This document shows, one piece after another, positions 1,156 through 62,859 of a stretch of DNA of 64,000 nucleotides (positions within the stretch are counted from its first letter, which is position 1; every line of letters begins with the position of its first letter). The position numbers and the translations under genes are program-made. The DNA lies in the NCBI RefSeq assembly GCF_003095655.1, contig NZ_CP029151.1, positions 1,611,001 through 1,675,000 of the forward strand, in the 5' to 3' direction. The DNA is from Dokdonia sp. Dokd-P16 (GTDB taxonomy: Bacteria > Bacteroidota > Bacteroidia > Flavobacteriales > Flavobacteriaceae). The notes under the pieces were generated by a model. The model ran no database searches. It was not told the DNA's origin and worked only from the letters and a program-made list of their open reading frames with translations.

Positions 1156-2004
1156 TTAATTTAGGGCTATATTATCTATTAGTCTAATCTCACCAGCATA
1201 AACGGCAAGAAAAGCTCGGTATTGTTGGTTTTTACGCTTTCGCGAAAGCGTACTTAAATTTTTGATATTTGCAATCTCAAAGTATTCAAGTTCGAGACCT
1301 TCTTTTTCCTCAAAAACCGTTGAAACATATTTTTTCAATTGTAATGCAGATTGTGAGTCAAAATTATTCTTCACATACTGCAGCACTTCATAAATAAAAG
1401 GCGCAATAGCAAGTTGATTCTCAGTAAGTCGTGCATTACGACTGCTCATTGCGAGACCATTTTCTTGTCTATGTATAGGGCAACCTATGATTTTTAAAGG
1501 TAATTTTTCTTTTTCTACAAGCTTACGCACAATGGCAAGCTGTTGATAATCTTTCTCTCCAAAATATGCTTTATCCGGATTTACTTGTCTAAAAAGGAGA
1601 TTTAAAACAGTCCCTACACCATCAAAGTGTCCTGGCCTGTGCTCTCCCTCCATAACCTTCTCTATGGCTCCAAAGTTATATGGGGTAGAGGAAACCTTAT
1701 TCCCATAAACTTCCGTAGCAGTTGGTGCGTATACTACCACTTTATCTCCATAATGCGCTAGAAATTCTAGATCTTTTTTAAGAGTGCGAGGATACTTGTC
1801 TAAGTCTGAAATATTATTGAATTGTGTAGGGTTAACAAAAATGCTTACTATAATTAAGGCACAATCTTTGAGTGCATAATCAATAAGTGATGCATGTCCA
1901 TGATGTAGGGCGCCCATTGTAGGGACAAAACCTACGTATTTGCCATTGCTTTTTGCTTGATGAACAATCTTAGAAATCTGTTTATGAGCTGTTATTGCTT
2001 GCAC
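1156..2004 (-). CDS. panC: Pantothenate synthetase
   Basis: 282 residues, full length. It joins pantoate and beta-alanine using ATP. The nucleotidyltransferase HxGH motif is in PTMGALHHGH (residues 28-37), EGEHRPGHFDGV is at 119-130, FGEKDYQQ at 148-155 and MSSRN at 186-190. The start is GTG (plus-strand CAC 2002-2004); no ATG lies nearby in frame. A -7-like TAAGTTTG on the minus strand (2028-2035) is 23 bases upstream. The palindrome TACGCTTTCGCGAAAGCGTA lies inside the gene at 1233-1252 and is read as part of a TLSRKRKNQ peptide near the C-terminus, a region variable in the family. Confidence 0.95.
   Translation of the reverse strand: MQAITAHKQISKIVHQAKSNGKYVGFVPTMGALHHGHASLIDYALKDCALIIVSIFVNPTQFNNISDLDKYPRTLKKDLEFLAHYGDKVVVYAPTATEVYGNKVSSTPYNFGAIEKVMEGEHRPGHFDGVGTVLNLLFRQVNPDKAYFGEKDYQQLAIVRKLVEKEKLPLKIIGCPIHRQENGLAMSSRNARLTENQLAIAPFIYEVLQYVKNNFDSQSALQLKKYVSTVFEEKEGLELEYFEIANIKNLSTLSRKRKNQQYRAFLAVYAGEIRLIDNIALN
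1233..1252. repeat. CGCTTTCGCGAAAGCG palindrome, copy 1 (in panC)
   Basis: Perfect 20-base copy TACGCTTTCGCGAAAGCGTA inside panC, read as LSRKR. Confidence 0.9.
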
Positions 2005-2027
2005 TTTATTAAAATTTTAACGGGATG

Positions 2028-2074
2028 CAAACTTACTAATATTAAGACTAAGTGCGTAAAAATTTGTACTTTTG
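2028..2074. promoter_or_regulatory. Divergent promoters for panC and the GT5-like gene
   Basis: Two Bacteroidota-type -7 boxes face apart: TAAGTTTG on the minus strand (2028-2035) for panC and TACTTTTG on the plus strand (2067-2074) for the gene at 2115. No clear -33 TTG could be paired with either, so the assignment rests on the -7 boxes and position alone. Confidence 0.5.
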
Positions 2075-2114
2075 CGTGTTTTTTGAATAGATTAACAACC
2101 TAATTTTTACATAT

Positions 2115-2927
2115 ATGAAAGATAAGAGGATATTGTACGTGTCATCTGAAGTGATTCCATACCTCCCAGAGACCGAGATTGCCTCTATGTCGTTTGAAGC
2201 TCCTCAAATGGTTAATTCCAAGGGTGGGCAAATACGCATATTTATGCCGCGTTACGGTAATATTAATGAGCGTAGACATCAACTACACGAAGTAATTAGA
2301 TTATCTGGAATGAACTTGGTTATCAATGATTTTGATATGCCACTTATTATCAAGGTTGCTTCTATACCTAAGGAGCGTATCCAGGTATATTTTATAGATA
2401 ACGAAGAGTATTTTAAGCGTAAGGCGACTTTTACAGACGAAGAAGGAAATCTTTTTCCTGATAACGACGAGCGCGCCATTTTCTTTGCAAAAGGAGTTGT
2501 AGAGACGGTTAAAAAACTAAACTGGGCGCCAGATATTATTCACGTTCAGGGATGGTTAGCATCTTTACTGCCATTATATCTTAAGCATTACTATGCAAGT
2601 GAACCATTATTTGCACAAAGTAAAATAGTAACTTCTATTTATAATCAAGGATTTGAAGGGTCTCTTAATGAAGAGCTTCTTAATAAAGTTGCTTTTGATG
2701 GAATTGACCCAGAGACTATCAAAGAACTAGAAGATCCTACTTATGAAAACCTAATGAAAGTTACTATCAAGAATAGTGATGCTGCAATCGTAGGTTCTCA
2801 AGAATTAAATGAAAACTTAATGAAAATCCTTAATACGACCAAAATTCCTGTTTTGCCGTATAAGAAGAAAGAGGAGTTTCCTCAGGCTTACGAAGATTTT
2901 TACACTACTCAAGTTTTAGAAGAATAG
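2115..2927 (+). CDS. Glycogen/starch synthase N-terminal-domain protein (GT5 half only)
   Basis: 270 residues resembling only the N-terminal Rossmann domain of GT5 glycogen/starch synthases: VSSEVIPY near the start, SKGGQIRIFMPRYGNI at about residues 36-50, and DIIHVQGWLASLLPLYLK around 140-157, matching the family's HxHDW region. True glycogen synthases have about 480 residues and a second GT-B domain carrying most nucleotide-sugar contacts; here the frame ends with a stop and the next gene begins 8 bases later, with no C-terminal half nearby. The usual KTGGL motif is replaced by SKGGQ. Such half-length proteins occur next to panC and DUF4270 genes in flavobacteria. The call is to the fold; glycogen synthesis is not supported. 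Confidence 0.75.
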   Translation: MKDKRILYVSSEVIPYLPETEIASMSFEAPQMVNSKGGQIRIFMPRYGNINERRHQLHEVIRLSGMNLVINDFDMPLIIKVASIPKERIQVYFIDNEEYFKRKATFTDEEGNLFPDNDERAIFFAKGVVETVKKLNWAPDIIHVQGWLASLLPLYLKHYYASEPLFAQSKIVTSIYNQGFEGSLNEELLNKVAFDGIDPETIKELEDPTYENLMKVTIKNSDAAIVGSQELNENLMKILNTTKIPVLPYKKKEEFPQAYEDFYTTQVLEE

Positions 2928-2934
2928 ACTAATT

Positions 2935-6849: not shown

Positions 6850-8364
<1,515 letters not shown>

Positions 8365-8376
8365 GAGATTTTTAAT

Positions 8377-8396
8377 TACGCTTTCGCGAAAGCGTA
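8377..8396. repeat. CGCTTTCGCGAAAGCG palindrome, copy 2 (atpD-atpC gap)
   Basis: Perfect 20-base copy TACGCTTTCGCGAAAGCGTA in the 48-base space between atpD and atpC, inside what should be one transcript. It would form an RNA hairpin but lacks a T tract, so it does not look like a terminator. Confidence 0.9.
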
Positions 8397-8412
8397 CTCA
8401 AAATAATATACT

Positions 8413-8691
8413 ATGCATTTAGAAATTGTAACTCCAGAGGCATCTCTTGTAAGCGGTGAAGTATCATCGGTTACTGTACCAGGTGTAAATGGTGAATACC
8501 AAATGTTAGATAATCACGCAGCAACTGTTTCTTTACTAGGAGCAGGAACTGTAAAATTTGAAGGAAATCCTACAATTGCTGCAGGTCACGAAGGTAAATT
8601 TACCAAAGCGACAGACGGTAAATGGTCACTTGTAATTGCAAGTGGCACTGTAGAGATGAACAACAATAAAGTGATTGTGCTAGCAGATTAA
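8413..8691 (+). CDS. atpC: F-type ATP synthase subunit epsilon
   Basis: 92 residues covering only the N-terminal beta-sandwich domain (MHLEIVTPEASLVSGEV, VPGVNGEYQMLDNHA). Typical bacterial epsilon subunits have about 135 residues because of a C-terminal two-helix inhibitory domain. That domain is absent here, as is common in Bacteroidota, so inhibition of ATP hydrolysis by extended helices is not expected. It is co-transcribed with atpD and followed by a strong terminator. Confidence 0.92.
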   Translation: MHLEIVTPEASLVSGEVSSVTVPGVNGEYQMLDNHAATVSLLGAGTVKFEGNPTIAAGHEGKFTKATDGKWSLVIASGTVEMNNNKVIVLAD

Positions 8692-8710
8692 AGCGCATTG
8701 AAATAAGTTT

Positions 8711-8744
8711 AAAAGCCCAAATTCTACCAAGAGTTTGGGCTTTT
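8711..8744 (+). terminator. Rho-independent terminator after atpC
   Basis: AAAAGCCCAAA (8711-8721) pairs with TTTGGGCTTTT (8734-8744) over a 12-base loop, and the T run continues to 8747. Confidence 0.9.
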
Positions 8745-10144: not shown

Positions 10145-11917
10145 TTATTTTTCTTGAAGCCAGTATTTTCTAAGCTTACTAGGTTTTTTTCTTGGGTTAG
10201 GATTCATTGTTATTGTGTAGGTGGGGTCTGCGCTTACGGTTAGTTTAGTTGTAAGTTTTCTGCCAAATCGCTCATAGTTTACAGCTATCGTCTGTCCTAC
10301 GGTAAGTGAATTCAAATAAGTTTCATAAGATTCACTAGTTCTTAACTCCGTGCCATCTAGTGCAGTAATAAGATCACCTTCGTTAAGGCCTGCAGTATAG
10401 GCGGGTGTTCGTTTTGAGGTAGCTCCTGCAATGCGTAATCCAGTTTCGGTGGAATTTACTCGTATTCCTAGGTATGGCTTTGCTTCATCTTGTGTGATTG
10501 TGAGTCCCGCATTGGTAAGTAGGTTTTGATAATCTGGCATTTGACTATCATAAATATATTGAGAGAAGAACGTTTTCGCGAAAGCGTCACCCGCATACTC
10601 AGCTAATACATTCTCAAGATCTTGTATAGAATAAGAGATTTCCTTTTTTCCAAACTGATTCCACACCGCTTTGAAATAATCGTCAAGATTAAGTCCTTGC
10701 TGGCGTAGTGAGAGGTCAAGCGCAAGCCCGAGTACACTTCCATAAGAGTAGTATGAGATAAAAGTATTGTTTCTATTTACAGGATCTACAGAGGTCGCGG
10801 CATCTACAAAGGGCGCCTGGTAGCTCATCTCAATCGGGTTAAAATAGTCACGGGCAGGTGAATTCCATACATAGTTAAACGTCCCGTTGAGACTTTTTAC
10901 ATAGTCTTCACTAATGATAACACCAGCGCGCGCAAGTATAAGATTTGTGTAATAGCTTGTAAAACCTTCGGCAAACCAAAGTGAGCCACTCATATTGGCC
11001 GCTGTAAAGTCAAAAGGCTCTAAATCTGCTGGGCGTATGCGCTCTACATTCCATGAGTGGAAAAACTCGTGAGATACAGTGCCTATGTTTCCTTCCATTC
11101 CTCCTGCAGCTAGTGATTCTCTGTCTGTAAGTATCGTGCTGTTGCGGTGTTCCATCCCATCGCCAGATACGTGAGGAGCGTAACAGGCAAGAAAGGTGTA
11201 CTCGCCAAAATCATAGGCAGGTAACTCTCCAAACACTTCTTTTTGTGCCAGCACAATAGCTTTTACCTTTTTCCAGTAGGCGTCAAAATCTTCTGGGGTA
11301 TCATCACTATGTAATGCAAAACGTATGTTCTGACCATCTACTGTAAATTCTCTAAGCTTATATTCACTTACCTCTGTAGGGCTGTCTAAGAAGTATTGTA
11401 AGTTTGGTGCACTGTAACGTGCGTCGTCTATTTTTTTAAGTTGGCTCGCTACTTTCCAATTCAAATCTTTCCTTAGCTTAAAATCTATCTCAATAGGACG
11501 GTGGTCTTCTCCCTCCATAAACATGAACGTTGCTGGCATATTGAGGTGTGCGTGCGACTCATCTACTTGTGAGTACGTGCCGTCTGCTCTATTTGCAAAT
11601 AGTGTGTATGATACGTTTACCTCTCCATCATGATCTTTAATCTCCCACGAGTATGGATCTGGGCGTGTTGCTTCTAGCGCTTCTCCCTTGCTATTTGTAG
11701 CCTTAAAATTAAAAACGTTTTTTGCAAACTCGTGTATCGCATAGCGTCCTGGTGAGGATCTACTCATACGCACTACTACAGTCTTTTTCTTGAGTTCAGG
11801 AAAAGTGATAGCTATCTGTGCTTCATGGTGGTGAGCATTATCAAAAGATATCTCGTACGCATTAGTTTGTCCATAACAAAAGCCAGTGAGTAAAAGGGCA
11901 ACACATAAAAATCTCAT
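10145..11917 (-). CDS. M61 glycyl-aminopeptidase-like metallopeptidase with PDZ domain
   Basis: 590 residues from the chosen ATG (plus-strand CAT 11915-11917), which gives a clean signal peptide, MRFLCVALLLTGFCYGQ. A longer frame begins at 11980, but that extension overlaps the divergent bioF promoter. After an M61 N-terminal beta domain come the zinc site HEFFHSWNVERIRP and the downstream Glu in LWFAEGFTSYY. A PDZ-like domain follows near residue 490 (PYLGIRVNSTETGLRIAG, NEGDLITALDGTEL). It is probably a secreted peptidase that trims small N-terminal residues. Palindrome copy 3 is read as DAFAKTFF. A -7-like TACTTTTA is on the minus strand at 11936-11943. Confidence 0.88.
   Translation of the reverse strand: MRFLCVALLLTGFCYGQTNAYEISFDNAHHHEAQIAITFPELKKKTVVVRMSRSSPGRYAIHEFAKNVFNFKATNSKGEALEATRPDPYSWEIKDHDGEVNVSYTLFANRADGTYSQVDESHAHLNMPATFMFMEGEDHRPIEIDFKLRKDLNWKVASQLKKIDDARYSAPNLQYFLDSPTEVSEYKLREFTVDGQNIRFALHSDDTPEDFDAYWKKVKAIVLAQKEVFGELPAYDFGEYTFLACYAPHVSGDGMEHRNSTILTDRESLAAGGMEGNIGTVSHEFFHSWNVERIRPADLEPFDFTAANMSGSLWFAEGFTSYYTNLILARAGVIISEDYVKSLNGTFNYVWNSPARDYFNPIEMSYQAPFVDAATSVDPVNRNNTFISYYSYGSVLGLALDLSLRQQGLNLDDYFKAVWNQFGKKEISYSIQDLENVLAEYAGDAFAKTFFSQYIYDSQMPDYQNLLTNAGLTITQDEAKPYLGIRVNSTETGLRIAGATSKRTPAYTAGLNEGDLITALDGTELRTSESYETYLNSLTVGQTIAVNYERFGRKLTTKLTVSADPTYTITMNPNPRKKPSKLRKYWLQEK
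10570..10587. repeat. CGCTTTCGCGAAAGCG palindrome, copy 3 (in M61 gene)
   Basis: ACGTTTTCGCGAAAGCGT, one mismatch in the left arm; core 10574-10583 exact. Read as DAFAKT in the peptidase. Confidence 0.85.
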
Positions 11918-12002: not shown

Positions 12003-13187
12003 ATGTTACCAGAAAAATTACAGAAAAAACTTATCATACGCAGAGACAGTGATTCTTTAAGAACACTTAATACTTCGTCAGGTATGGTGGATTTTTCATC
12101 TAACGATTATTTGGGTTTTTCTAGTAGCCTTCCTATTGCTAGAAATATTGCCCAGCGAGCACAAGAAATCTTAGACGAACATCACATTATTGCAAATGGT
12201 GCCACCGGTAGCCGACTGCTGTCCGGTAATCATACTCTTTATAGTCAGGCAGAGACCTTAATTGCGGGTATTCATAATAGTGAGACTGCTCTTATATTTA
12301 ATAGCGGTTATGATGCAAATATTGGCTTTTTCCAAAGCGTGCCACAGCGCGGTGATCTCATTCTTTACGATGAATTTATACACGCTAGTATACGTGATGG
12401 CATCCAGATGAGCCTTGCTAGAGGTTATAAGTTTAAACACAATGATATTGCAGATATAGAAGCCGTAGTTAATCGTCTTAAAGCGATGCATCATCTAGAT
12501 GATCAAGAAACTACAACGGCTATATATCTTGTTACGGAATCTGTTTTCTCAATGGATGGTGATACGCCAGATCTAACTGCTATTTCTCAAATTTGTAAAA
12601 AACATCACATCTACCTAATAGTAGATGAAGCTCATGCAACGGGTGTTATAGGTAAAAAGGGACTTGGTTTAGTGCAGGAGTTGGCGCTAGAAAACGAGGT
12701 TTTTGCTCGTATTATCACTTTTGGAAAAGGCATGGGAGCACATGGAGCAGCGATTTTATGCAGCGAGCCATTGCGCGCGTATCTTATTAATTTTGCTAGA
12801 TCATTTATCTATACCACGGGATTGCCGCCGCATTCCATCGCTATAATAATGGCGGCTTACGAGCAATTAGATGCACGAAGCAATGCGCAGTTGCTAGCAG
12901 TGGGGAATTTACAGCAACTTATAAGTCACTTCAATAGTCTTCTCAAAAAAACAGGACTTGATAGCTTATTTATAGAGAGTGACTCTGCCATACACTGTGC
13001 TGTGGTGATGGGTAATGAAAAGGTTAGAACGCTTTCGCGAAAGCTTGAAAAAGAAAATTTTGAAGTGAAGCCTATTTTATCGCCCACAGTTCCAGAAGGT
13101 CAAGAGCGCTTGCGTGTTTGTTTGCACGCATATAATACCAAAGAAGAAATAACAGCATTGCTGGCTATTTTAAAAGCGCAGTTATAG
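12003..13187 (+). CDS. bioF: 8-amino-7-oxononanoate synthase (alpha-oxoamine synthase family)
   Basis: 394 residues from the ATG at 12003; the in-frame extension back to 11886 lies upstream of the probable promoter and is rejected. PLP-dependent fold I: NDYLGFS, GATGSRLLSGNH (about 66-77), DEAHATG (208-214) and the PLP lysine Lys242 in TFGKGMGAHGA. It condenses pimeloyl thioester and alanine in the first ring-forming step of biotin synthesis. The family also contains KBL and serine palmitoyltransferase, but the bioD-bioA-bioB neighbours settle the role. Palindrome copy 4 is read as RTLSRKLEKE near residue 345. Confidence 0.9.
   Translation: MLPEKLQKKLIIRRDSDSLRTLNTSSGMVDFSSNDYLGFSSSLPIARNIAQRAQEILDEHHIIANGATGSRLLSGNHTLYSQAETLIAGIHNSETALIFNSGYDANIGFFQSVPQRGDLILYDEFIHASIRDGIQMSLARGYKFKHNDIADIEAVVNRLKAMHHLDDQETTTAIYLVTESVFSMDGDTPDLTAISQICKKHHIYLIVDEAHATGVIGKKGLGLVQELALENEVFARIITFGKGMGAHGAAILCSEPLRAYLINFARSFIYTTGLPPHSIAIIMAAYEQLDARSNAQLLAVGNLQQLISHFNSLLKKTGLDSLFIESDSAIHCAVVMGNEKVRTLSRKLEKENFEVKPILSPTVPEGQERLRVCLHAYNTKEEITALLAILKAQL
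13029..13046. repeat. CGCTTTCGCGAAAGCG palindrome, copy 4 (in bioF)
   Basis: ACGCTTTCGCGAAAGC at 13029-13044 followed by TT; core 13033-13042. Read as TLSRKL. Confidence 0.85.
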
Positions 13188-13640: not shown

Positions 13641-14256
13641 GACATATTTTATAACAGGAATCTCTACAGACGTAGGAAAGACGGTAGCTGCAGCAATAGT
13701 GACACAGTCACTAGAGGCAGATTACTGGAAGCCAATACAGGCTGGAGATCTTGATAATAGTGATACACATAAAGTAAAGCGACTAGTTAATAATGAAATA
13801 TCGCAATATCACGATAATAGTTATTCGCTCAAGACACCTATGAGTCCGCACGCTGCGGCAGAGATTGATGGCATTACCGTTACTCCCGCCTCTATAAAAC
13901 GTCCTGAAACGACAAGACCTCTCGTAATAGAAGGAGCTGGTGGTATACTCGTGCCTATAAATGAAACAGAAACCATAGCCGATTTAATAGTGCCTTCAGA
14001 TAAAGTAATTGTTGTGTCTCGTCATTATCTTGGAAGTATAAATCACACTTTATTGACGGTCGAGCTACTCAAAGCAAGAGGACTTGCTGTGGCGGGAATT
14101 ATTTTTTCTGGAGAAGAGCATCCTACAACGGAAGCAATCATTGAGAAAATGACTGGTGTTACCATCATAGGTCGCATTGATGAAGAACCTTATTTTGATG
14201 AAAATGTAATAGCAGAATATGCAGAACTTTTTCGCGAAAGCTTACAGGCCTTATAA
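13627..14256 (+). CDS. bioD: Dethiobiotin synthetase
   Basis: 209 residues from the ATG at 13627, which gives the family N-terminus KTYFITGISTDVGKT with the P-loop. A longer frame to 13564 only reads DUF2007 sequence out of frame. Further motifs are YWKPIQAG, PHAAAEIDG and VIEGAGGILVP. It carboxylates diaminopelargonate to dethiobiotin with ATP. It overlaps the previous gene and precedes bioA. Palindrome copy 5 is read as LFRESLQ close to the C-terminus. Confidence 0.93.
   Translation: MKPNKTYFITGISTDVGKTVAAAIVTQSLEADYWKPIQAGDLDNSDTHKVKRLVNNEISQYHDNSYSLKTPMSPHAAAEIDGITVTPASIKRPETTRPLVIEGAGGILVPINETETIADLIVPSDKVIVVSRHYLGSINHTLLTVELLKARGLAVAGIIFSGEEHPTTEAIIEKMTGVTIIGRIDEEPYFDENVIAEYAELFRESLQAL
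14230..14241. repeat. CGCTTTCGCGAAAGCG palindrome, copy 5 (in bioD)
   Basis: TTTCGCGAAAGC with degenerate flanks, read as FRES at the BioD C-terminus. Confidence 0.75.
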
Positions 14257-16107: not shown

Positions 16108-16122
16108 TACGCTTACGCGAAA
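16108..16122. repeat. Degenerate copy of the TTTCGCGAAA palindrome
   Basis: TACGCTTACGCGAAA differs from the consensus left part by one base (T to A) and lacks the right arm. It sits about 3-18 bases upstream of the ketoacyl synthase -7 box. Confidence 0.5.
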
Positions 16123-16125
16123 TTG

Positions 16126-16133
16126 TACTTTTG
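16126..16133 (+). promoter_or_regulatory. -7 box of the ketoacyl synthase gene
   Basis: TACTTTTG, a full match to TAnnTTTG. Expected transcription start is about 16138-16140, downstream of the ATG at 16102, which therefore cannot be the main start; this decides for the TTG at 16162. Confidence 0.65.
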
Positions 16134-17316: not shown

Positions 17317-17333
17317 GCGAATGGTGTGCACTT

Positions 17334-17348
17334 TTTCGCGAAAGCGTA
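17334..17348. repeat. CGCTTTCGCGAAAGCG palindrome, copy 6 (before bioB)
   Basis: TTTCGCGAAAGCGTA in the ketoacyl synthase-bioB gap; left arm partly degenerate. Confidence 0.8.
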
Positions 17349-25064: not shown

Positions 25065-25084
25065 TACGCTTTCGCGAAAGCGTA
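25065..25084. repeat. CGCTTTCGCGAAAGCG palindrome, copy 7
   Basis: Perfect 20-base copy TACGCTTTCGCGAAAGCGTA just after the kinase stop; no T tract follows. Confidence 0.9.
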
Positions 25085-26301: not shown

Positions 26302-26321
26302 TACGCTTTCGCGAAAGCGTA
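26302..26321. repeat. CGCTTTCGCGAAAGCG palindrome, copy 8
   Basis: Perfect 20-base copy TACGCTTTCGCGAAAGCGTA in the gap between the convergent cyclohydrolase-like and T9SS genes. Confidence 0.9.
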
Positions 26322-40249: not shown

Positions 40250-40626
40250 AAATTTTGATTTGGGAATGATAATTTAAGAAATTATCCCTAGAGTATGTTT
40301 TATGTCAAAAAATGGATTTAATTAACTAATAATATTCTTTTAATCTTGAAAATACTGCTTTTTGTCGATTATAGGGGTGGTTTACTTAGATTTTTTTATT
40401 TTCCAAAATCTCTGTGATATTTTTTATAAGCCGCTAATTATCAGCAATGAATAATTTTCATGTTATAAAAAGGCTCTCTGTTGCATATTTGAGCCTTAAC
40501 TAGTTGAGATTTTGAATTTATGGTAATATTAGGATGGTTTGTCTTTGGTGCGCTTTCGCGAAAGCGTTAAATGTTTTCATTATTAGCGTCATACTCTATA
40601 TCTTTTATCAATCAAATAGATACATA
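40250..40626. other. Divergent intergenic region upstream of acs copy 2
   Basis: 377 bases between the hybrid kinase start and acs copy 2. It contains a hairpin, AAGGCTC (40470-40476) with GAGCCTT (40491-40497), and palindrome copy 12. A reading frame open through the palindrome into acs2 is rejected as an N-terminal extension. No full promoter match was found. Confidence 0.6.
40551..40566. repeat. CGCTTTCGCGAAAGCG palindrome, copy 12 (upstream of acs2)
   Basis: Perfect 16-base copy, 60 bases before the acs2 start codon. Confidence 0.9.
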
Positions 40627-43318: not shown

Positions 43319-43921
43319 ATGATCATATTAATTTCTTCGGAGAAAACAAGCGAAAGTGAGATAGAGACGCTTCATCAACTCTTTGAAGCTGGATTATCTC
43401 ATTTTCATCTTAGAAAACCAGATGCAAGTCTTGATGAGCACATAGCATACTTGAATATGGTTGATAGTGCATATCATAATCGTATAATGACGCACAACTT
43501 TCATAAAGAGCTGTGTAATCAATTTAACATTATGGGTGTGCATCTAGAGGAAGCGATGTGGAGAGCACAAGGTGACCGTCTAGAGGACTATGTAATCTCA
43601 TTTACTAGCAAAGGAAATATTGTGTCTTCCTCTTATCACGAGCCTCAAGATCTTGCTTCGCAAGCAGTGCGTTTTGCATATACATTATTAAGTCCTGTGT
43701 TTTCGGCAATTTCTAAAAGTGATATGCAAGGAAGAGGTTTTGATGTGCGTCACATTAATAAGGATATTGTGGGCATGGGAGGAATAAATGCAACCACAAC
43801 TCCAGAAGCACTAAAACTTGGTTTTAAAGGAGTAGGAGCGCTAGGTGGTATATGGAATGCAGATGATCCTGTAGTAGCCTTTGTGGAGATGAAGACCGCT
43901 TTCGCGAAAGCGAATACCTAA
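43319..43921 (+). CDS. Thiamine phosphate synthase/TenI-like protein
   Basis: 200 residues with a TIM-barrel pattern of the ThiE/TenI family: FEAGLSHFHLRKPD, IMTHNFH, GVHLEE, LLSPVFSAISKSDMQGRGF and VGMGGINATTTPEA near the phosphate-binding end. ThiE usually has QLR or QxR where FHLRKP stands and a GPIF rather than SPVF motif, so it may be the TenI-type branch rather than the main ThiE; no other thiamine genes are nearby. The last residues, TAFAKANT, are encoded by palindrome copy 13. Confidence 0.75.
   Translation: MIILISSEKTSESEIETLHQLFEAGLSHFHLRKPDASLDEHIAYLNMVDSAYHNRIMTHNFHKELCNQFNIMGVHLEEAMWRAQGDRLEDYVISFTSKGNIVSSSYHEPQDLASQAVRFAYTLLSPVFSAISKSDMQGRGFDVRHINKDIVGMGGINATTTPEALKLGFKGVGALGGIWNADDPVVAFVEMKTAFAKANT
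43897..43912. repeat. CGCTTTCGCGAAAGCG palindrome, copy 13 (3' end of TenI-like gene)
   Basis: Perfect 16-base copy, nine bases before the end of the coding sequence; read as AFAKA. Confidence 0.9.
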
Positions 43922-46469: not shown

Positions 46470-46957
46470 TGATTTATCTTATTACTGGAAATACAGGAGC
46501 AGGAAAAACTACGTATTCATTAGATCTTAAGAAAAGCGTTAATGGTATCTTATTTTCCATTGATCATTGGAATAAGACACTATTTCTTGATGATAAACAA
46601 GAGACAGACGGAGTTGATTGGTTTTTAGAACGCATAGCGCGTAGCGACCAGATGATTCAATCACTAGTATTACAGCTCGAAGAGGCGGATACTCCCGCAA
46701 TTTTAGATCTTGGATTTGCAAAGCGAGATAGAAGAGAACGTTTTTACGCTTTCGCGAAAGCGCACCAAATACCTTACGAGCTTCACTTTCTTGATATTGA
46801 TAAAGAAATAAGAAAAGAAAGAGTACAACAGCGCAATAAAGAGCAAGGAGCCACCTACGAATTTGACGTTTCGGCGGCAGATTTTGAGTTTATGGAAACC
46901 TGGTTTGAGCCGCCTGTAGAAGATGAACTCGTAGAAGCAACAATAATTACCAAGTGA
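46469..46957 (+). CDS. P-loop NTPase/kinase-like protein
   Basis: 162 residues, starting with GTG at 46469, one base overlapping the previous TAG. The Walker A is at the very N-terminus (ITGNTGAGKTTYS), DLGF lies near residue 77 and a KEIRKERVQQRN arginine-rich lid near residue 113. This matches AAA_33-type small-molecule or nucleic-acid kinases and chloramphenicol-phosphotransferase-like proteins; the substrate is unknown. Palindrome copy 14 is read as YAFAKAHQ. The next gene overlaps its stop by four bases (GTGA). Confidence 0.8.
   Translation: MIYLITGNTGAGKTTYSLDLKKSVNGILFSIDHWNKTLFLDDKQETDGVDWFLERIARSDQMIQSLVLQLEEADTPAILDLGFAKRDRRERFYAFAKAHQIPYELHFLDIDKEIRKERVQQRNKEQGATYEFDVSAADFEFMETWFEPPVEDELVEATIITK
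46747..46762. repeat. CGCTTTCGCGAAAGCG palindrome, copy 14 (in P-loop gene)
   Basis: Perfect 16-base copy preceded by TA; read as AFAKA. Confidence 0.9.
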
Positions 46958-49103: not shown

Positions 49104-50105
49104 ATGGATAGTTTAACTCAGATAGTTCTTGGTGCCGCAGTAGGCGAGGCGGTACTTGGCAAAAAGATAGGTAATAGAGCAATGCTCTGGGGAGCCGTAG
49201 CGGGTACCATACCAGATCTTGACATTGTATGGAGATATCTCACAGATACTATCACAGCGACAGAGATGCACCGTGGCTTTAGCCATAGTGTTGTATTTTC
49301 TATTCTCGCAGCACCCTTACTTGGTTGGATTGTTCATCAACTCAAAAAACGACCAGATGTGGGGTGGCAAGGATGGTCAAAGCTTTTTTTCTGGGGTCTT
49401 TTTACACATCCATTGCTAGATGCATTTACTACATGGGGAACACAAATATTTTGGCCATTTAATTGGAGAGTTGCTTTTAATAGCATCTTTGTTATAGATC
49501 CGCTATACACCGTTCCTTTTTTAATATGTGTTCTTATTGCAGCTACTAGAAAACGTGGTACGCTTTCGCGAAAGCGTATAAACAACATTGGTATTTATAT
49601 AAGCACTGCATATTTATTACTAACGGTTGTAATAAAGTATATCGCCCATCAAAAAGTGGTTGAAAATCTTGAGCAGCAGGGCATAGCATATACCCAAATC
49701 TCAACGCGCCCAGCCCCAATGAACACGGTGTTGTGGAATATAAATGTAGATGCAGGCGAAAATTATCTTATAGGTGATTACTCTCTATTTGACTCCAAGC
49801 CCATCACTTTTAAGGCATATCCTAAAAAGCGCTCAGAAAGTGAAGCGCTTATCAATACGTCAGAAGTACAACGGCTTATAACCATTTCTGAAGGATGGTA
49901 TATTTTAGAAAGAAATCAAGATAAGTGGATTTATAATGACCTCCGTTTTGGGCTTATTGCCATAAATCCAGATAATCCTCAATTTGTTTTTAGATACAAG
50001 CTAGAGGAAAATGACGGTACAATCACAGCCACAGAGGATCGTCCAGACACGTCAAATATGGATACCGTATTAGGTAATCTATGGACAAGGATTAAGGGGA
50101 ATTAA
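49104..50105 (+). CDS. YdjM-like membrane-bound metal-dependent hydrolase
   Basis: 333 residues. DUF457/YdjM features: MDSLTQIVLGAAVGEAVLG, GAVAGTIPDLDIVW, HRGFSHS and THPLLDAFTTWGTQ, with conserved His/Asp likely binding metal between four or five membrane segments. The C-terminal 130 residues form a soluble tail. It is 19 bases after the MutS-like gene. Its last four bases overlap the end of a convergent receiver gene. Palindrome copy 15 is read as RKRGTLSRKRIN in a cytoplasmic loop. Confidence 0.85.
   Translation: MDSLTQIVLGAAVGEAVLGKKIGNRAMLWGAVAGTIPDLDIVWRYLTDTITATEMHRGFSHSVVFSILAAPLLGWIVHQLKKRPDVGWQGWSKLFFWGLFTHPLLDAFTTWGTQIFWPFNWRVAFNSIFVIDPLYTVPFLICVLIAATRKRGTLSRKRINNIGIYISTAYLLLTVVIKYIAHQKVVENLEQQGIAYTQISTRPAPMNTVLWNINVDAGENYLIGDYSLFDSKPITFKAYPKKRSESEALINTSEVQRLITISEGWYILERNQDKWIYNDLRFGLIAINPDNPQFVFRYKLEENDGTITATEDRPDTSNMDTVLGNLWTRIKGN
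49559..49578. repeat. CGCTTTCGCGAAAGCG palindrome, copy 15 (in YdjM-like gene)
   Basis: Perfect 20-base copy TACGCTTTCGCGAAAGCGTA, read as TLSRKR. Confidence 0.9.
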
Positions 50106-52589: not shown

Positions 52590-53423
52590 TTACGTTCTAT
52601 CCTTGTCTCTATAGACGCTTGGAGTGATTTTCATCAATTTCTTAAAGTTTTTATTAAAATGCGATAAAGTCTTATAACCACAGCGATCTGCAACATCTGC
52701 TATAGGAATTTCTCGTTGAGCTTCTAGTAAGGAGCAGGCATGTGCAATGCGAACTTCAGTAAGAAAACTAAAATATGACTTGTTTGTGCGCTGTTTAAAG
52801 TACTTGCAAAAGCTATGAGGCGTCAAAGATGTTAAGGATGCAAGATCATTTAAATGCACCTCTTGTCTGTAATTTGCTAGTGTAAAGTCAAAGATTGCGC
52901 TCATGCGTTTTCCATCTTTTTCAGAAATGTGGCGTTCATAAATAAACGTTGAAAGCGATATGTTTTTCTTGATTTTCAAGACAGTAATTAGGTCTATAAA
53001 ATGCCCTAATCTATGCATTCCTTGAGCCGTGTTTATATGCTGGAACAAAGATGCAATTTCAGGAGTTATAGATGTTTTAAATCCCGCTTTCGCAAAAGCA
53101 TTAAAATCCGCAATACCTTTTCCTTCTTCTAATTGTAAAAATATATCGCCAAAAGATGCTGTACTAAAGAATACAGAATACATCAAGCAATCTGCGGTGT
53201 CACTATTAAATACATGGGGCTGAAAGCTGCCTAAAACAATTACCTCTCCAGCCGAAAATGAATGAACAGTATCTCCTGCCACTAGAGTTCCCGTTCCTTT
53301 CTTAATGTAGCTTATTTGGATTTCCTCATGATGATGGAGTGCATTGTATAATACACCTTGATCTACTTGAAATAAAATAGCAGCATTGCTGGGCTTCGGA
53401 ATTTTAAAAGGGAGTACACGCAT
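52590..53423 (-). CDS. AraC-family transcriptional regulator
   Basis: 277 residues. N-terminal cupin-like ligand domain (HHHEEIQISYIKKGTGTLVAG, GEVIVLGSFQPHVF) and C-terminal double HTH (LNDLASLTSLTPHSFCKYFK and IPIADVADRCGYKTLSHFNKNFKKLM). It diverges from the hydroxyproline operon across a 133-base gap and is the likely activator of that operon, with hydroxyproline or an intermediate as ligand; that is inference. A degenerate palindrome (53085-53099) is read as NAFAKAGF. Minus-strand TACCTTTA three bases before the ATG suggests a near-leaderless message. Confidence 0.9.
   Translation of the reverse strand: MRVLPFKIPKPSNAAILFQVDQGVLYNALHHHEEIQISYIKKGTGTLVAGDTVHSFSAGEVIVLGSFQPHVFNSDTADCLMYSVFFSTASFGDIFLQLEEGKGIADFNAFAKAGFKTSITPEIASLFQHINTAQGMHRLGHFIDLITVLKIKKNISLSTFIYERHISEKDGKRMSAIFDFTLANYRQEVHLNDLASLTSLTPHSFCKYFKQRTNKSYFSFLTEVRIAHACSLLEAQREIPIADVADRCGYKTLSHFNKNFKKLMKITPSVYRDKDRT
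53085..53099. repeat. Degenerate palindrome copy in the AraC gene
   Basis: CGCTTTCGCAAAAGC, one base off the consensus (G to A), still read as AFAKA. Confidence 0.7.
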
Positions 53424-56034: not shown

Positions 56035-57747
56035 ATGAAGCATATAATTATACTGCTCGTTTTCTGTATTTCAATGAATGTTTGCGCTCAGAATTCTTCG
56101 GCGCAGCTTGCAAAAATTATAGAAGATAGTCAGGAGTTCAAGTGGCAAGATGATTTGGCAGATGAGCATCCTATGGGTGTTTTTTCAAAAGAACGGTTTG
56201 AAAAGGAGTCCGCTTTCGCGAAAGCGCAACTTAAAAAACTACAGGCTATATCACCATCAACGTTGTCTGAAACGGAGCTCATATCTCTAGAATTACTCAA
56301 GTTCAAGCTCCAAGAAACGGTAGATTACTATGAATACGAAAGCTATTTAAATCCGCTATTGTCAGATTCGGGTTTTCATAGTAGTTGGAATTATATGGTG
56401 CGTCCCATAAGTACGTATAAGCAAGCGGTTTTATACCTCAATAAGCTGAAAGCGTTACCAGAAGTAGTAGATCAATACTTGCCATTGTTGAGAGAAGGAG
56501 TTGCAAAAGGTGTCTCACAGCCGCGTGTAATTTTTAATGGATATGAGAGTACGTATGATTCACAAATTGTAGCCAATTATAAAGATAGCTTCTATTATGA
56601 ACCATTCTTAAACTTACCAAGTTCAATCTCAGGCTCGCAAAGAGATTCGATATTGGTAGCCGCTAGAAGCGTCATTGAGCAGCAAGTGATTCCATCTTTT
56701 AAGCGTGTAAAAATATTCTTTGAAACAGAATACCTCCCAAAAACGCGCACGACACTTGGAGTTTCAGAAACACCAAATGGAAAAGTATATTATCAAAATA
56801 GAATAAACTATTACACGACCCTAGATATCACTGCAGATGAGGTGTATAACAAAGGACTCGCTGAAGTTGCCCGCATTAAAGCCGAAATGCAGAAAATTAT
56901 TAAGGAAGTAAATTTCGAAGGATCTTTTGCAGATTTCTTGCAGTTTCTGCGCACAGATAAACAGTTTTATACCACTTCTCCAGAGCAACTGCTTATGATT
57001 GCTCGTGATATGGCAAAAAGAGCAGATGCACAATTACCACGGTTTTTTAAAACCTTACCTCGCAAACCCTATGGAGTGGCGCCAGTACCAGACGCAATTG
57101 CTCCTAAATACACTACAGGACGATATGTAGGTAGTGCAAAGGGTAGTACTAATCCAGGTTATTACTGGGTAAATACTTATGATTTGCCTAGTAGACCAGT
57201 ATATGTATTGCCATCACTTACAGTTCATGAAGCTGTTCCTGGGCATCACTTGCAAGGATCGCTCAATCAAGAGCTGGGCGATAGTATTCCAACATTTAGA
57301 AAAAACATGTATGTAAATGCATACGGTGAGGGATGGGGATTGTATTGCGAATACCTCGCTGCCGAAATGGGAATGTATACAACACCGTACGAACGTTTTG
57401 GTCAACTCACTTATGAAATGTGGCGTGCTTGCAGACTTGTAGTAGATACTGGATTACACGCAAAAGGCTGGACAAGGGAGCAAGTGGTAAATTATATGTC
57501 TGAAAACACAGCGCTTTCCATACATGAAATTAATACGGAGACAGATAGGTATATCTCATGGCCAGGACAAGCGCTTGCTTATAAAATGGGCGAACTCAAA
57601 ATAAGAGAACTGAGAACGCTAGCAGAAAAAGAGCTAGGTACTAAGTTTGACATTAGGGAATTCCATGAGATCATCCTAGAGCAAGGAACGGTAACACTCG
57701 CTATACTTGATAGACGAGTTAAGCATTGGATTGAGAAAAATAGTTAA
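56035..57747 (+). CDS. Secreted DUF885 metallopeptidase-like protein
   Basis: 570 residues with signal peptide MKHIIILLVFCISMNVCAQ. DUF885 hallmarks: TVHEAVPGHHLQGSL with the HExxxGH metal-like motif near residue 400, YGEGWGLYCEYLAAEMG, WRACRLVVDTGLH, and Y-rich termini. Members are zinc-dependent peptidase-like proteins of largely unknown specificity. Its place inside the operon (7 bases after ALDH, 21 before the epimerase) suggests it frees hydroxyproline or hydroxyproline-containing peptides outside the inner membrane; that is inference. Palindrome copy 16 is read as ESAFAKAQL in an N-terminal helix. Confidence 0.85.
   Translation: MKHIIILLVFCISMNVCAQNSSAQLAKIIEDSQEFKWQDDLADEHPMGVFSKERFEKESAFAKAQLKKLQAISPSTLSETELISLELLKFKLQETVDYYEYESYLNPLLSDSGFHSSWNYMVRPISTYKQAVLYLNKLKALPEVVDQYLPLLREGVAKGVSQPRVIFNGYESTYDSQIVANYKDSFYYEPFLNLPSSISGSQRDSILVAARSVIEQQVIPSFKRVKIFFETEYLPKTRTTLGVSETPNGKVYYQNRINYYTTLDITADEVYNKGLAEVARIKAEMQKIIKEVNFEGSFADFLQFLRTDKQFYTTSPEQLLMIARDMAKRADAQLPRFFKTLPRKPYGVAPVPDAIAPKYTTGRYVGSAKGSTNPGYYWVNTYDLPSRPVYVLPSLTVHEAVPGHHLQGSLNQELGDSIPTFRKNMYVNAYGEGWGLYCEYLAAEMGMYTTPYERFGQLTYEMWRACRLVVDTGLHAKGWTREQVVNYMSENTALSIHEINTETDRYISWPGQALAYKMGELKIRELRTLAEKELGTKFDIREFHEIILEQGTVTLAILDRRVKHWIEKNS
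56211..56226. repeat. CGCTTTCGCGAAAGCG palindrome, copy 16 (in DUF885 gene)
   Basis: Perfect 16-base copy; read as SAFAKA. Confidence 0.9.
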
Positions 57748-58794: not shown

Positions 58795-60042
58795 ATGGCA
58801 AAAGATGTTATCATCATAGGTGGAGGGATTATAGGATTAAGTTGTGCATACTTTCTACAAAAGTCTGGGCATCATGTCACGGTAATAGATCAATCTAAAA
58901 TGGATGGCGGCGCGAGTTATGTAAATGCTGGATATATGTCTCCTAGTCATCTCGTACCACTGGCAGCTCCCGGAGTCATGAGGCAAGGAATAAAGTGGAT
59001 GTTTAATAAAAAGAGTCCGCTGTATATTAAGCCGCGTCTTGATGCAGATTTTTTAAAATGGTCGCTAGCTTTTAATAGGTCGTGTACTCAGAAACATGTA
59101 AATAGCGCTGTTCCCGTAATGAAAGAAATTGCGGTGCTGGGGCGTGATTTATATCATCAGATCAAGCAAGAAGAAGGATTTTCTTTTCACTTAGAAAAAA
59201 AAGGACTGCTTATGCTTTGCCAGACAGAAGAAACACTTCAGCACGAGGACGAACTTGTGCAAATTGCAATAAAAGAAGGATTAAGCGCAAGAACCATTAC
59301 TGCTCAGGATGTTAAAGGGATGATGCCAGATGCTACGCTTGATATCGTGGGCGCCTCGTATTTTGAGTGTGATCATCACAGTACTCCTGGCGAATTTATG
59401 GCAGAAATGAAAGCACATCTTTTATCAAAAGGTGTTGTCATTCGGCAAGAGGAGAAGGTGATTGATGTAACAATTAATAAGGGTAAAATAACCAGTGTAA
59501 AAACAGATAAGGAAGAGTTTAAGGCGGATGAAGTTGTACTAGCCGCTGGAAGTTGGACAAGTACGCTTTCGCGAAAGCTAAACATCAGCTTACTACTTCA
59601 GGCAGGAAAAGGTTATCGCATCCAGACCACCAAAGAGACAGGAATCACCTACCCATCTATACTTTCAGAAGCAAAAGTTGCAATAACTCCAATGAATGGA
59701 TTTACACGTTTTGCAGGAACGATGGAAATTGCTGGAATCAATCACAGAATTAATAAGGCTCGAGTAGACTCTATTGCAGATGGTGTCAATAAGTATTTTC
59801 CAGAAGTGCATATTACAGCAGAAGAAAAAGCTGTTGCTGCTTGTGGCTTGCGACCAGTATCTGCAGATGGAATGCCATATATAGGTAAAAGTTCAAAATG
59901 CAAAAACCTCACTATCGCAACGGGTCATGCAATGATGGGGTGGACGTTAGGGCCTAGTACGGGTAAACTAGTGCAAGAAATTGTAGATGAGGTAACACCT
60001 AGTATGGATATGGCTATGTTTCATCCAGATAGAACGTTTTAA
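58795..60042 (+). CDS. FAD-dependent D-amino acid oxidase/dehydrogenase (D-hydroxyproline, predicted)
   Basis: 415 residues of the DAO family: FAD-binding VIIIGGGIIGLSCAYFLQ at the N-terminus, GASYVNAGYMSP, VVLAAGSWTS and the C-terminal ACGLRPVSADGMPYIG and GHAMMGWTLGPSTG. In context it should oxidise cis-4-hydroxy-D-proline to pyrroline-4-hydroxy-2-carboxylate, the substrate of the deaminase encoded at 53557. Soluble DadA-like form without membrane segments. Palindrome copy 17 is read as TSTLSRKLNIS, just after the LAAGSW motif. Confidence 0.88.
   Translation: MAKDVIIIGGGIIGLSCAYFLQKSGHHVTVIDQSKMDGGASYVNAGYMSPSHLVPLAAPGVMRQGIKWMFNKKSPLYIKPRLDADFLKWSLAFNRSCTQKHVNSAVPVMKEIAVLGRDLYHQIKQEEGFSFHLEKKGLLMLCQTEETLQHEDELVQIAIKEGLSARTITAQDVKGMMPDATLDIVGASYFECDHHSTPGEFMAEMKAHLLSKGVVIRQEEKVIDVTINKGKITSVKTDKEEFKADEVVLAAGSWTSTLSRKLNISLLLQAGKGYRIQTTKETGITYPSILSEAKVAITPMNGFTRFAGTMEIAGINHRINKARVDSIADGVNKYFPEVHITAEEKAVAACGLRPVSADGMPYIGKSSKCKNLTIATGHAMMGWTLGPSTGKLVQEIVDEVTPSMDMAMFHPDRTF
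59562..59580. repeat. CGCTTTCGCGAAAGCG palindrome, copy 17 (in D-amino acid oxidase gene)
   Basis: TACGCTTTCGCGAAAGCTA, one base short on the right arm; core 59567-59576 exact; read as TLSRKL. Confidence 0.85.
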
Positions 60043-61005: not shown

Positions 61006-61041
61006 TTATTTTAAACTTAAAGAGAATCAATAAACTTCGGT

Positions 61042-61056
61042 TTTCGCGAAAGCGTA
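61042..61056. repeat. CGCTTTCGCGAAAGCG palindrome, copy 18
   Basis: TTTCGCGAAAGCGTA, left arm degenerate, ten bases upstream of a -7-like box (61066-61073). Confidence 0.8.
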
Positions 61057-61073: not shown

Positions 61074-61197
61074 CGCTCATGAACGCACAAGGCTGGATAA
61101 ACTTACCTATACTTCTTAATTTCCTCATAAAGAGGAACCCAGAATAGATTGCTTTACTTGATTTTGAGTAACTTTAAGACAATCTAAAAACACAACA

Positions 61198-62358
61198 ATG
61201 CCTTTTTATCATAAGTTGGGAGATATCCCTCATAAGCGTCACACTCAGTTTCGTAAACCAGATGGCTCCTTATATTCCGAACAATTGTTTGGAACCATAG
61301 GTTTTGACGGGATGAGTACAAATAGTTATCACGTACATAGACCTACGCAAGTAAAGGAAATACGTAAGCAATACTCTGTAAAACCAGAGATTGCAAAGGA
61401 GAATAACATGCAATCGTATCGTTTTCGTGGTTTTCAAATAAAGCCAGAAAAGGATTATCTAGAAAGCAGGAAAGCCGTGCTCACTAATAGCGACTGTACG
61501 ATCATACTTGCCGCTCCTCAAGAACGCACACAAGATTATTTTTATAAAAACACAGATGCAGATGAGCTTATTTTTGTTCATAAAGGCACTGGAAAACTGC
61601 GCACACACTTAGGGAATCTTGATTTTAAATATGGAGATTACTTACTCATTCCTAGAGGAGTTATCTACAAGATGGATTTTGATACGGAAGATAATAGACT
61701 CTTTATAGTCGAGTCACGCAGACCTATTTATACACCTAAGCGTTACCGTAATTATTTTGGTCAGTTACTAGAGCATTCTCCATTTTGTGAGCGTGACTTA
61801 AGACAGCCTTACGAGTTAGAAACTAACGATGAGAAAGGGGAGTTTTTAATCAAGGTAAAAAAGCAAGACGATATTTTTGAGATGGTATATGCTTCACACC
61901 CATTTGATGTGGTAGGATATGATGGATATAATTATCCATACGCCTTCTCAATTCATGATTTTGAACCTATAACAGGTCGCATCCACCAGCCGCCACCAGT
62001 ACACCAGACATTTGAGACAGATGCCTTTGTAATCTGTAGTTTTGTGCCTAGAAAGTACGACTATCATCCGCTCAGTATTCCAGCGCCATACAATCATAGT
62101 AATATAGATAGTGATGAGGTATTGTATTATGTAGATGGTGATTTTATGAGCCGTACAGATGTAGAGGCGGGACATATTTCTTTACACCCAGCAGGGATTC
62201 CACACGGTCCGCACCCAGGAACTGCTGAGAAAAGTATAGGGAAAGAGGGAACAGAAGAGCTTGCAGTGATGGTAGATACTTTTAAACCACTTATGGTTTG
62301 CAAAGATGCTATGGCAATTGCAGATGAAAGCTATTATCAAAGCTGGCTAGACCACTAA
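61198..62358 (+). CDS. hmgA: Homogentisate 1,2-dioxygenase
   Basis: 386 residues, cupin-fold ring-cleaving dioxygenase that opens homogentisate to maleylacetoacetate. Begins MPFYHKLGDIPHKRHTQF. The substrate-pocket and iron regions include IHQPPPVHQTFETDAFVICSF, HSNIDSDEVLYYVDG and HPAGIPHGPHPG. It is shorter than the proteobacterial enzyme (about 435 residues), as usual in Bacteroidota. It pairs with hppD, two genes downstream, in tyrosine degradation. Confidence 0.93.
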   Translation: MPFYHKLGDIPHKRHTQFRKPDGSLYSEQLFGTIGFDGMSTNSYHVHRPTQVKEIRKQYSVKPEIAKENNMQSYRFRGFQIKPEKDYLESRKAVLTNSDCTIILAAPQERTQDYFYKNTDADELIFVHKGTGKLRTHLGNLDFKYGDYLLIPRGVIYKMDFDTEDNRLFIVESRRPIYTPKRYRNYFGQLLEHSPFCERDLRQPYELETNDEKGEFLIKVKKQDDIFEMVYASHPFDVVGYDGYNYPYAFSIHDFEPITGRIHQPPPVHQTFETDAFVICSFVPRKYDYHPLSIPAPYNHSNIDSDEVLYYVDGDFMSRTDVEAGHISLHPAGIPHGPHPGTAEKSIGKEGTEELAVMVDTFKPLMVCKDAMAIADESYYQSWLDH

Positions 62359-62366
62359 ACATCAAT

Positions 62367-62840
62367 ATGCAAAATAAATTACCTGCAGATCCGTCTGCAT
62401 TAATATTAGGAATCGTTGGCCTCGTGATAGGTATTGCTGGTTGCTGTTGTTATGGATTTACCGCAATAATACCATTAGGATTGAGTATCGCAGGACTTGT
62501 AATGGCAAATAAGAGCATGAAACTCTATCGCTTAAACCCAGAAGAATTTTCTGAGTCTAGCAGGAGTAACGTTTCCATAGCACGAGTTCTTAATATTATT
62601 TCTATCATTTTAAATGGGTTGTTCTTACTTATCGTGATAGGAGCGCTTGCATTTTTAGGAGTTGCTGGTATGACAGGAGCATTTGATGATCTTACAAATG
62701 ATGCATACAGTACAGATAACAACTGGGAATACGAAGATGACTTTAATGATGATGTTTTTATAGAAGAAGAAGTAGATTCTATAAGTACAGATTCTATTTT
62801 CTTAAATGAAGTGTTTCCAGAAAGAGATAGTATTGAGTAA
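62367..62840 (+). CDS. DUF4190 membrane protein
   Basis: 157 residues with two hydrophobic hairpins: ALILGIVGLVIGIAGCCCYG followed by FTAIIPLGLSIAGLVMANKS, and IISIILNGLFLLIVIGALAF. The CCC triplet and the MANKSMKLY stretch resemble DUF4190/CCC-motif proteins. The C-terminal 45 residues are highly acidic (WEYEDDFNDDVFIEEEVDS). Function unknown. It sits 8 bases after hmgA, before hppD, though no tyrosine-catabolic role is apparent. Confidence 0.7.
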   Translation: MQNKLPADPSALILGIVGLVIGIAGCCCYGFTAIIPLGLSIAGLVMANKSMKLYRLNPEEFSESSRSNVSIARVLNIISIILNGLFLLIVIGALAFLGVAGMTGAFDDLTNDAYSTDNNWEYEDDFNDDVFIEEEVDSISTDSIFLNEVFPERDSIE

Positions 62841-62843
62841 TAC

Positions 62844-62859
62844 CGCTTTCGCGAAAGCG
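62844..62859. repeat. CGCTTTCGCGAAAGCG palindrome, copy 19
   Basis: Perfect 16-base copy four bases after the DUF4190 stop and 100 bases before hppD. Confidence 0.9.

Follow-up and report, generated by a model that had tools for sequence, protein, structure and literature searches.

A palindrome iterated about 1,100 times in the genome of Dokdonia sp. Dokd-P16, a candidate landing site for a dimeric DNA-binding protein

Why some genomes fill with copies of one palindrome is an open question, for which the highly iterated palindrome HIP1 of cyanobacteria is the known case, and it is raised again by a 64-kb stretch of the chromosome of Dokdonia sp. Dokd-P16 (G000:C1:1611001-1675000, hereafter the window). 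The 10-bp core TTTCGCGAAA was found here in 19 exact copies, compared to an average of 0.08 and never more than 1 in dinucleotide shuffles, and in five of the 19 (cores at 1238, 8382, 25070, 26307 and 49564) the surrounding bases complete the perfect 20-mer TACGCTTTCGCGAAAGCGTA, which is the consensus around the core. A first-pass annotation of the window had given the same count, with well under one copy expected by chance, as well as the five perfect 20-mers, and both statements were borne out. It had further named a whole-genome count near background, or copies aligned merely through paralogy of their flanks, as observations that would speak against a genuine repeat. The complete genome (3,623,447 bp, single contig) holds 1074 copies of TTTCGCGAAA and 10 of the reversed word, far from background, and beyond the palindrome the copies have nothing in common but a bias in composition that covers 15 nt to either side. 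We tentatively read these approximately 1,100 two-fold symmetric sites as landing sites for a putative dimeric, sequence-specific protein that would organise or maintain DNA, and we rate this reading at somewhat below an even chance.

The abundance was further assessed in a sample of the Dokd-P16 genome consisting of 40 stretches of 20 kb and the window (864 kb, 24% of the genome). The sample contains 246 cores, where an order-3 Markov model predicts 0.9, and the next palindromic 10-mer reaches 21 copies against an expected 9.35. For the 14-mer GCTTTCGCGAAAGC there were 186 exact, 26 one-mismatch and 47 two-mismatch copies, compared to averages of 0, 0.05 and 1.8, respectively, for 60 control palindromes of the same composition. 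Intermediates are thus present above chance, yet they are few beside the exact copies. The inner sequence TCGCGA was not enriched outside the core (59 copies, 56.6 expected), and there was no general excess of TCGCGA or CGCG. The same sample also contained further over-represented 10-mers, such as TTGTTACTGT (43 copies, 1.5 expected) and CTTCAAAATC (35 copies, 2.9 expected).

The repeated unit covers approximately 50 bp, made up of the 20-bp palindrome and two 15-nt arms, and falls into two halves of about 25 bp, each with 10 bp of strict sequence (TACGCTTTCG) after some 15 bp that contain little C on the same strand. In the arm, 6-20 nt out on the strand entering the palindrome, C makes up 7.5% of the bases (background 18.6%), T 41% and G 24%; the opposite arm mirrors this composition, and the bias drops sharply beyond 20 nt. 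Arms with zero or one C numbered 339 of 490, where about 102 were expected. The bias was alike in the 122 coding and the 116 intergenic copies and was also seen in five other Dokdonia genomes and in G027, a genome of the same order from outside the genus. Deamination (C to T on a 3' overhang) was considered as the origin of the arms and not adopted, since in coding arms the rise of G is no smaller than that of T. With a weight matrix built from exact cores (a score-based set gave 245 exact cores among 270 sites), the information content R_sequence was 29.8 bits over the 20 bp and 3.5 bits over the arms, compared to the 11.6 bits (R_frequency) needed to find the sites. No covariation was detected across the dyad: matched bases at -1 to -17 gave z values of -1.9 to +0.3, and among 30 positions only -18 stood out (z 3.3). 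The two halves therefore vary independently, which speaks for two protein half-sites rather than a hairpin; for lack of covariation between the arms, a reading as hairpin or RNA was rejected.

Conservation of the sites was assessed against four congeners, G006 (strain 4H-3-7-5), G008 (strain PRO95), G016 and G003. In the window, 13 of 13 cores were intact in G006 and likewise in G008 (87.7% identity), compared to 58% and 35% of control 10-mers, respectively. At 76% identity, G016 and G003 each still had 13 of 14 aligned cores intact, with control 10-mers down to 11.4% and 11.8%. In wider comparisons, which include the window region and thus partly the same sites, Dokd-P16 cores were retained in 66 of 68 cases in 4H-3-7-5 (control 57%) and in 52 of 57 in PRO95 (control 38%), and 100 of 107 were retained between 4H-3-7-5 and PRO95 (control 38%). 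The alignments thus indicate that the cores are under strong selection within the genus. Among the 13 listed core differences between Dokd-P16 and either 4H-3-7-5 or PRO95, seven were single substitutions, five of these being C to T or G to A in CGCG, and the rest were block or gapped changes. One listed difference looks like a paralogous alignment (L036 with L067), and a 23-nt gap between relatives that spans a core (L022 3895) was the sole candidate seen for insertion of a whole unit. PRO95 has a site at L022 8555 whose core is missing from Dokd-P16, although by eye the Dokd-P16 sequence can still be read as Ala-Phe-Ala-Lys-Ala in one frame; this could represent either a decayed site whose peptide was left behind or a precursor.

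Placement in the sample was evaluated with home-made gene calls, leaving out six of the 246 sites at stretch ends. Genes (741 kb) contain 124 sites and gaps (118 kb) contain 116, so that gaps are about six times richer per base. In the window, the same kind of gene calls placed 13 of the 19 cores in genes and 6 in gaps, in line with the first-pass description of copies scattered through both. The in-gene copies are distributed over the three frames as 65, 32 and 27, and the preferred frame reads Ala-Phe-Ala-Lys-Ala. Divergent gaps hold 22 sites in 29.4 kb, co-directional gaps 79 in 75.3 kb and convergent gaps 15 in 13.0 kb; promoter regions are thus not favoured. In co-directional gaps the positions lean toward the upstream gene, and 30 of the 79 sites begin within 20 nt past its stop codon.

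With a mean density of about one site per 3.4 kb, close pairs are strongly avoided. The coefficient of variation (CV) of the inter-site gap lengths was 0.64, compared to 0.98 ± 0.06 in 1000 simulations that kept the coding or intergenic class of each site; gaps shorter than 500 bp numbered 7 against 40.5 ± 4.9, and gaps longer than 6 kb 14 against 23.3 ± 3.5. A lowered CV was also observed in G016, G010, G027, G003 and G008 (p 0.001 to 0.03, uniform placement), the independent cases being G010, G027 and the remainder of G016, as G003, G008 and part of G016 represent the window's own region and largely the same sites. By eye, no gradient was apparent over 41 chromosome stretches, with origin and terminus judged from GC skew only. 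Two of the 40 stretches hold no site at all and in hindsight resemble cassette or acquired DNA. One of these, L005 (90001-110000 of the genome), carries 11 copies of a conserved repeat (approximately GCCGCACTCGCTTTATGYAGTGGCCTGTT) between small open reading frames (ORFs), resembling a gene-cassette array; the other, L032 (2600001-2620000), has all its listed ORFs on one strand and may be acquired. Six pairs of sites less than 400 bp apart were considered as hot spots that might mark the gene of the protein itself, an idea that was dropped as the neighbouring genes showed nothing telling by eye.

Across genomes, high copy numbers of the core are confined to few lineages. All 18 Dokdonia genomes searched carry 481-1195 cores, whereas among 41 other genomes of the order only G027 is rich (595 cores) and the remaining 40 have 0-12. 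In 397 genomes of the family, the 12-mer CTTTCGCGAAAG reaches 445-917 copies in six genomes of three genera (g1, g11 and g210), and none of the remaining 391 exceeds 21. Among 392 phylum genomes, a set partly overlapping that of the family, Dokd-P16 alone is high and no other has more than 11. No other comparable palindrome was found in 12 genomes of the order, of which stretches no longer than 20 kb were scanned (those of 4 more genomes being masked), except the same motif in G029, nor in the best 80 of 591 loci related through a conserved 502-aa protein, whose 1.49 Mb contain 2 cores and 3 reversed controls. Some genomes of genus g147 (examples of this genus are G593, G627, G643 and G796) hold 10 or 11 scattered 12-mers against 0-2 reversed controls, which may be due to chance or to acquired DNA, or may point to a weaker form of the system.

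Small clusters of sites also occur in several site-poor genera, and 14 of the 17 stretches fetched around them are interlinked by DNA homology. The pieces tested among them carry metal-efflux genes (ACR_tran, OEP and a heavy-metal ATPase in L201) and conjugative-transposon genes (TraG and TraM in L208). In arm statistics that count near-identical viral and island stretches separately, the 44 sites of the stretches from site-poor genera, including L057, have C-poor arms (135 of 1320 bases, 10.2% compared to 19.1%), as have, among the matches listed, the 72 sites on 53 stretches below 50% GC from the viral database IMG/VR (300 of 2160 bases, 13.9% compared to 19.8%). The arms of the 66 copies on 67 GC-rich IMG/VR stretches, again among the matches listed, are not C-poor (625 of 1980 bases, 31.6% compared to 30.2%). 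In three of the viral stretches, an integrase gene has a site at its 3' end (L118 2737 and L187 10002 by Pfam, L136 10352 by similarity to L118). At this position L136 and L187 are 67.7% identical over 294 nt, with the palindrome kept despite the divergence. Homologous islands from four genera have in common two palindromes separated by 933 bp (L201 6268/7201, L203 9433/10366, L205 6729/7662 and L206 8590/9523), and the sites may thus be traces of transfer out of site-bearing hosts.

The symmetric 50-bp architecture with its independent halves, the avoidance of close pairs, the selection on cores among congeners and the occurrence of sites on viral and conjugative DNA are the observations on which the reading as landing sites of a protein is built. 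The C-poor arms, the avoidance, the positions kept among congeners but hardly between genera, and the sites on viral contigs and conjugative elements go beyond what the first-pass annotation had described. A dimer would occupy each two-half site, and its job would be structural or maintenance work on DNA, be it to organise the nucleoid, to load a DNA-handling complex or to serve repair. One site per few kb would suffice, and a second site close by would therefore not be kept. Large marine populations could keep a thousand weakly useful sites. Of the first-pass suggestion that the palindrome is a protein-binding site for chromosome organisation, the binding is probable, and chromosome organisation may be what the protein does.

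Several observations weigh against this reading. The arms are weak in G230 (C 17.0% compared to 21.9%, p = 0.017), where the spacing is not significantly even either (10 gaps, p 0.40). In G016 the arm bases are not individually conserved (75.2% compared to 77.0% identity); the arms evolve like their surroundings, so that their composition is kept and not their sequence, and they could have another cause. Counts per 20 kb range from 0 to 11 with a variance equal to the mean (both 5.7), and the evenness is therefore short-range. In DNA aligned to G027 at 70% identity, none of five Dokdonia cores and not the one G027 core was common to both (control 4.2%). Protein alignment of partly the same genes gave 0 of 6 common cores between genera, the window site at 8382 is absent in all four genomes of g11 and g210, and G230 has one of three aligned window positions in common, that in a pantoate ligase-like gene. 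As positions are mostly unshared between genera, a role tied to particular places is unlikely, and the arrays seem, on few data, to have been built largely independently. Phages, moreover, need no nucleoid organiser of their own, and the cognate protein was not found among the families searched (PF00437, PF00145, PF01555, PF02195, Y1_Tnp and RecC).

These families were searched in nine site-rich and eleven site-poor genomes and bear on the known systems that the palindrome resembles. Neisseriaceae DNA uptake sequences (DUS) and Pasteurellaceae uptake signal sequences (USS) likewise come in about a thousand copies, with lineage restriction, spacing, intergenic excess and an extended flanking preference. 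A self-DNA uptake signal of this kind, as also proposed by the first-pass annotation, would have cells prefer site-bearing DNA, with transformation spreading and preserving the copies by molecular drive. It shares many predictions with the reading as landing sites of a dimeric protein: the spacing, the few genera, the conserved positions and the intergenic excess would all follow, and the excess of one-mismatch 14-mers over control words and the two site-free stretches fit it as well. Riemerella columbina, furthermore, is naturally competent and has been reported to prefer its own DNA (PMC7965970). The Dokdonia site, however, is a strict 20-bp palindrome, whereas uptake sequences are described as non-palindromic in PMC1939737, and its exact copies far outnumber those with one mismatch, though the same source argues for gradual evolution of uptake sequences. 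The sites are also found on viral and conjugative DNA, and the pilus or type II secretion motor PF00437 (T2SSE/PilB-type) passed the cut-off in only three of the nine site-rich genomes, Dokd-P16 not among them, and in one of the eleven site-poor ones. The pilus-type proposal is weakened by this absence, and we regard uptake as unlikely, though as one of the two main rivals. The presence on phages and conjugative elements would be explained best by a Chi-like signal, which would stop or redirect an AddAB-type double-strand-break nuclease in either direction and so protect these elements too, the adjacent T/G-rich strand favouring RecA loading. No new gene would be required if a universal enzyme had lineage-specific recognition, the spacing would follow, and the T/G-rich 5' arm fits the preference of RecA. 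Known Chi sites are likewise lineage-specific, with about a thousand copies in T/G-rich context, but they are directional and 5-8 nt long, while the Dokdonia site is long, of about 30 bits and, being palindromic, without orientation towards the replication fork. RecC had no match in any of the 20 genomes, so that nothing there separates the site-rich ones, and AddAB was not searched. We consider a Chi-like role decidedly unlikely.

The nearest known look is that of HIP1 (GCGATCGC) and the alternate HIPs, which are likewise highly iterated, lineage-restricted palindromes with a GC-rich centre in genes and gaps (PMC4390886). As a HIP1-type by-product, the sites would be created by methylation-directed repair around a DNA methyltransferase whose target is an inner sequence, for instance TCGCGA, and the prevalence of C-to-T and G-to-A changes in CGCG among the single-base core differences would suit such an origin. 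HIP1 is 8 bp long, compared to a 20-bp palindrome with 15-nt arms, about 33 bits in total and one site per 3.4 kb in Dokdonia; such a by-product would leave the arms unexplained, and TCGCGA shows no excess outside the core. Neither of the two methyltransferase families searched was consistently present: the C5 family PF00145 was missing from six of the nine site-rich genomes, including Dokd-P16, and found in three site-rich and six site-poor ones, and the N6/N4 family PF01555 passed the cut-off in two of nine, not in Dokd-P16, and in four of eleven; other families were not searched. Of the HIP1-like logic with a different sequence that the first-pass annotation had suggested, the iterated palindrome thus stands and the methyltransferase link is weakened, and we judge this origin highly improbable. 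A mobile palindrome, like the repetitive extragenic palindromes (REP) and bacterial interspersed mosaic elements (BIME), which are repeated in many copies near gene ends, would be copied by a REP-associated tyrosine transposase (RAYT) or another transposase. The near-identity of the copies, the excess of exact ones over intermediates and the 23-nt gap spanning a core favour it. The flanks, however, share composition and no sequence, half of the copies lie inside genes, and more than half of the listed core differences are single substitutions. In agreement with the first-pass remark that no RAYT gene is present, Y1_Tnp had no match in five Dokdonia genomes (G000, G006, G016, G010 and G013) or in G230, and it was present in the three g11 genomes and in four of the eleven site-poor ones; other transposases were not searched. 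Copying of this kind is most improbable, and the same holds for an RNA-level element, i.e. a terminator or 3'-end hairpin, which the cluster of sites shortly past stop codons would support. Half of the copies (124 of 246) are in genes, no pair covariation was found, the 3' side is A/C-rich, and the statement of the first-pass annotation that the palindromes are not terminators agrees with the absence of a T tract and with the fact that none of the seven palindromes in window positions 8000-27000 was among the 21 terminator-like matches there. The sites of parS/Noc and SlmA, finally, are palindromes read by a dimer and scattered along the chromosome, in tens of copies; Dokdonia has about 1,100 and no chromosomal gradient by eye, and the ParB family PF02195 gave a single match in eight of nine site-rich genomes, including Dokd-P16, and two in G010 (site-poor genomes: one match in seven of eleven, more in four), leaving no second ParB-family protein in eight of the nine carriers.

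None of the machines searched follows the sites, and the standard explanations are thereby removed in their usual form. The responsible factor could be encoded by a gene common to g1, g11 and g210, or be a universal enzyme whose preference has changed. Taken further, the reading as landing sites becomes that of a DNA-landmark system, in which a dimeric protein would read the 50-bp sites and want one approximately every 3 kb, the array apparently having arisen around a shared factor more than once, independently in two genera at least and perhaps in three, and phages and conjugative elements adopting the same mark; we regard this picture as evenly balanced between right and wrong.

The individual window sites, which are given without strand, illustrate the variety of contexts, with gene assignments based on Pfam. 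Among the intragenic perfect 20-mers, that at 1233..1252 (core 1238-1247) is located in the minus-strand pantoate ligase-like gene and kept in G006, G008, G016 and G003, with the core also at the same place in G230 and not in G027, and that at 49559..49578 lies in a YdjM-like gene and is kept in all four congeners. All four also keep the sites in an M61 peptidase-like gene (10569..10588, absent in G230), an aminotransferase-like gene (13028..13047), near the 5' end of a Na/sulfate symporter-like gene (28946..28965), in a recQ-like gene (29658..29677), within a gene at 46745..46764 and in a DUF885 gene (56209..56228). The site at a gene 3' end at 14225..14244 is kept in G006, G016 and G003 and unaligned in G008, and that in a DAO-family gene (59562..59581) is kept in G016 and G003, the two compared. 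Three further sites are kept in G006 and G008: one in a biotin carboxylase-like gene (33893..33912) and one at the 5' end of the acetyl-CoA synthetase-like ORF 40534-42537 (40549..40568), both unaligned in G016 and G003, and one at a gene 3' end (43895..43914) that shows a length-neutral block change in these two. As the Pfam match of the acetyl-CoA synthetase-like ORF begins at residue 43, its site may precede the true start codon.

The gap sites include the remaining perfect 20-mers, of which that at 8377..8396, 17 nt past the stop of ORF 6856-8364, is kept in four of four congeners (the genomes of g11 and g210 lacking it being G433, G281, G027 and G230), that at 25065..25084, 15 nt past a stop codon, is kept in G006, G008 and G003 and unaligned in G016, and that at 26302..26321, between convergent genes, is kept in all four. 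An intergenic site 17 nt past a stop codon (17329..17348) is likewise kept in all four; 61037..61056 is intergenic and 62842..62861 lies 6 nt past a stop codon. The degenerate copies mentioned by the first-pass annotation could be followed by orthology in two cases, in both of which G008, G016 and G003 have the exact core: 16108..16127, with the one-difference core TTACGCGAAA at 16113-16122, and 53083..53102, with TTTCGCAAAA at 53088-53097, a variant that G006 has as well.

No paper on the palindrome was found in the open-access literature of PubMed Central (PMC), closed journals and preprints being outside reach, also when TTTCGCGAAA and GCTTTCGCGAAAGC were used as search words. The string 'palindrom' is absent from the main text of PMC3587595 on Dokdonia PRO95, and the papers that contain TTTCGCGAAA, among them PMC8034619 on human absent words, do not deal with flavobacteria as far as their titles and the openings of their abstracts show.

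The usual explanations for a genome filled with one palindrome, i.e. methyltransferase, pilus-type uptake, RAYT and ParB paralog, are testable and mostly fail here, in a culturable marine bacterium for which PacBio reads are public. The combination of spacing and core-by-core conservation makes Dokdonia well suited to the search for a factor that requires marks at intervals of a few kb. The sites may in addition serve as a tracer, as clusters in other genera could reveal DNA that was once in a site-bearing host.

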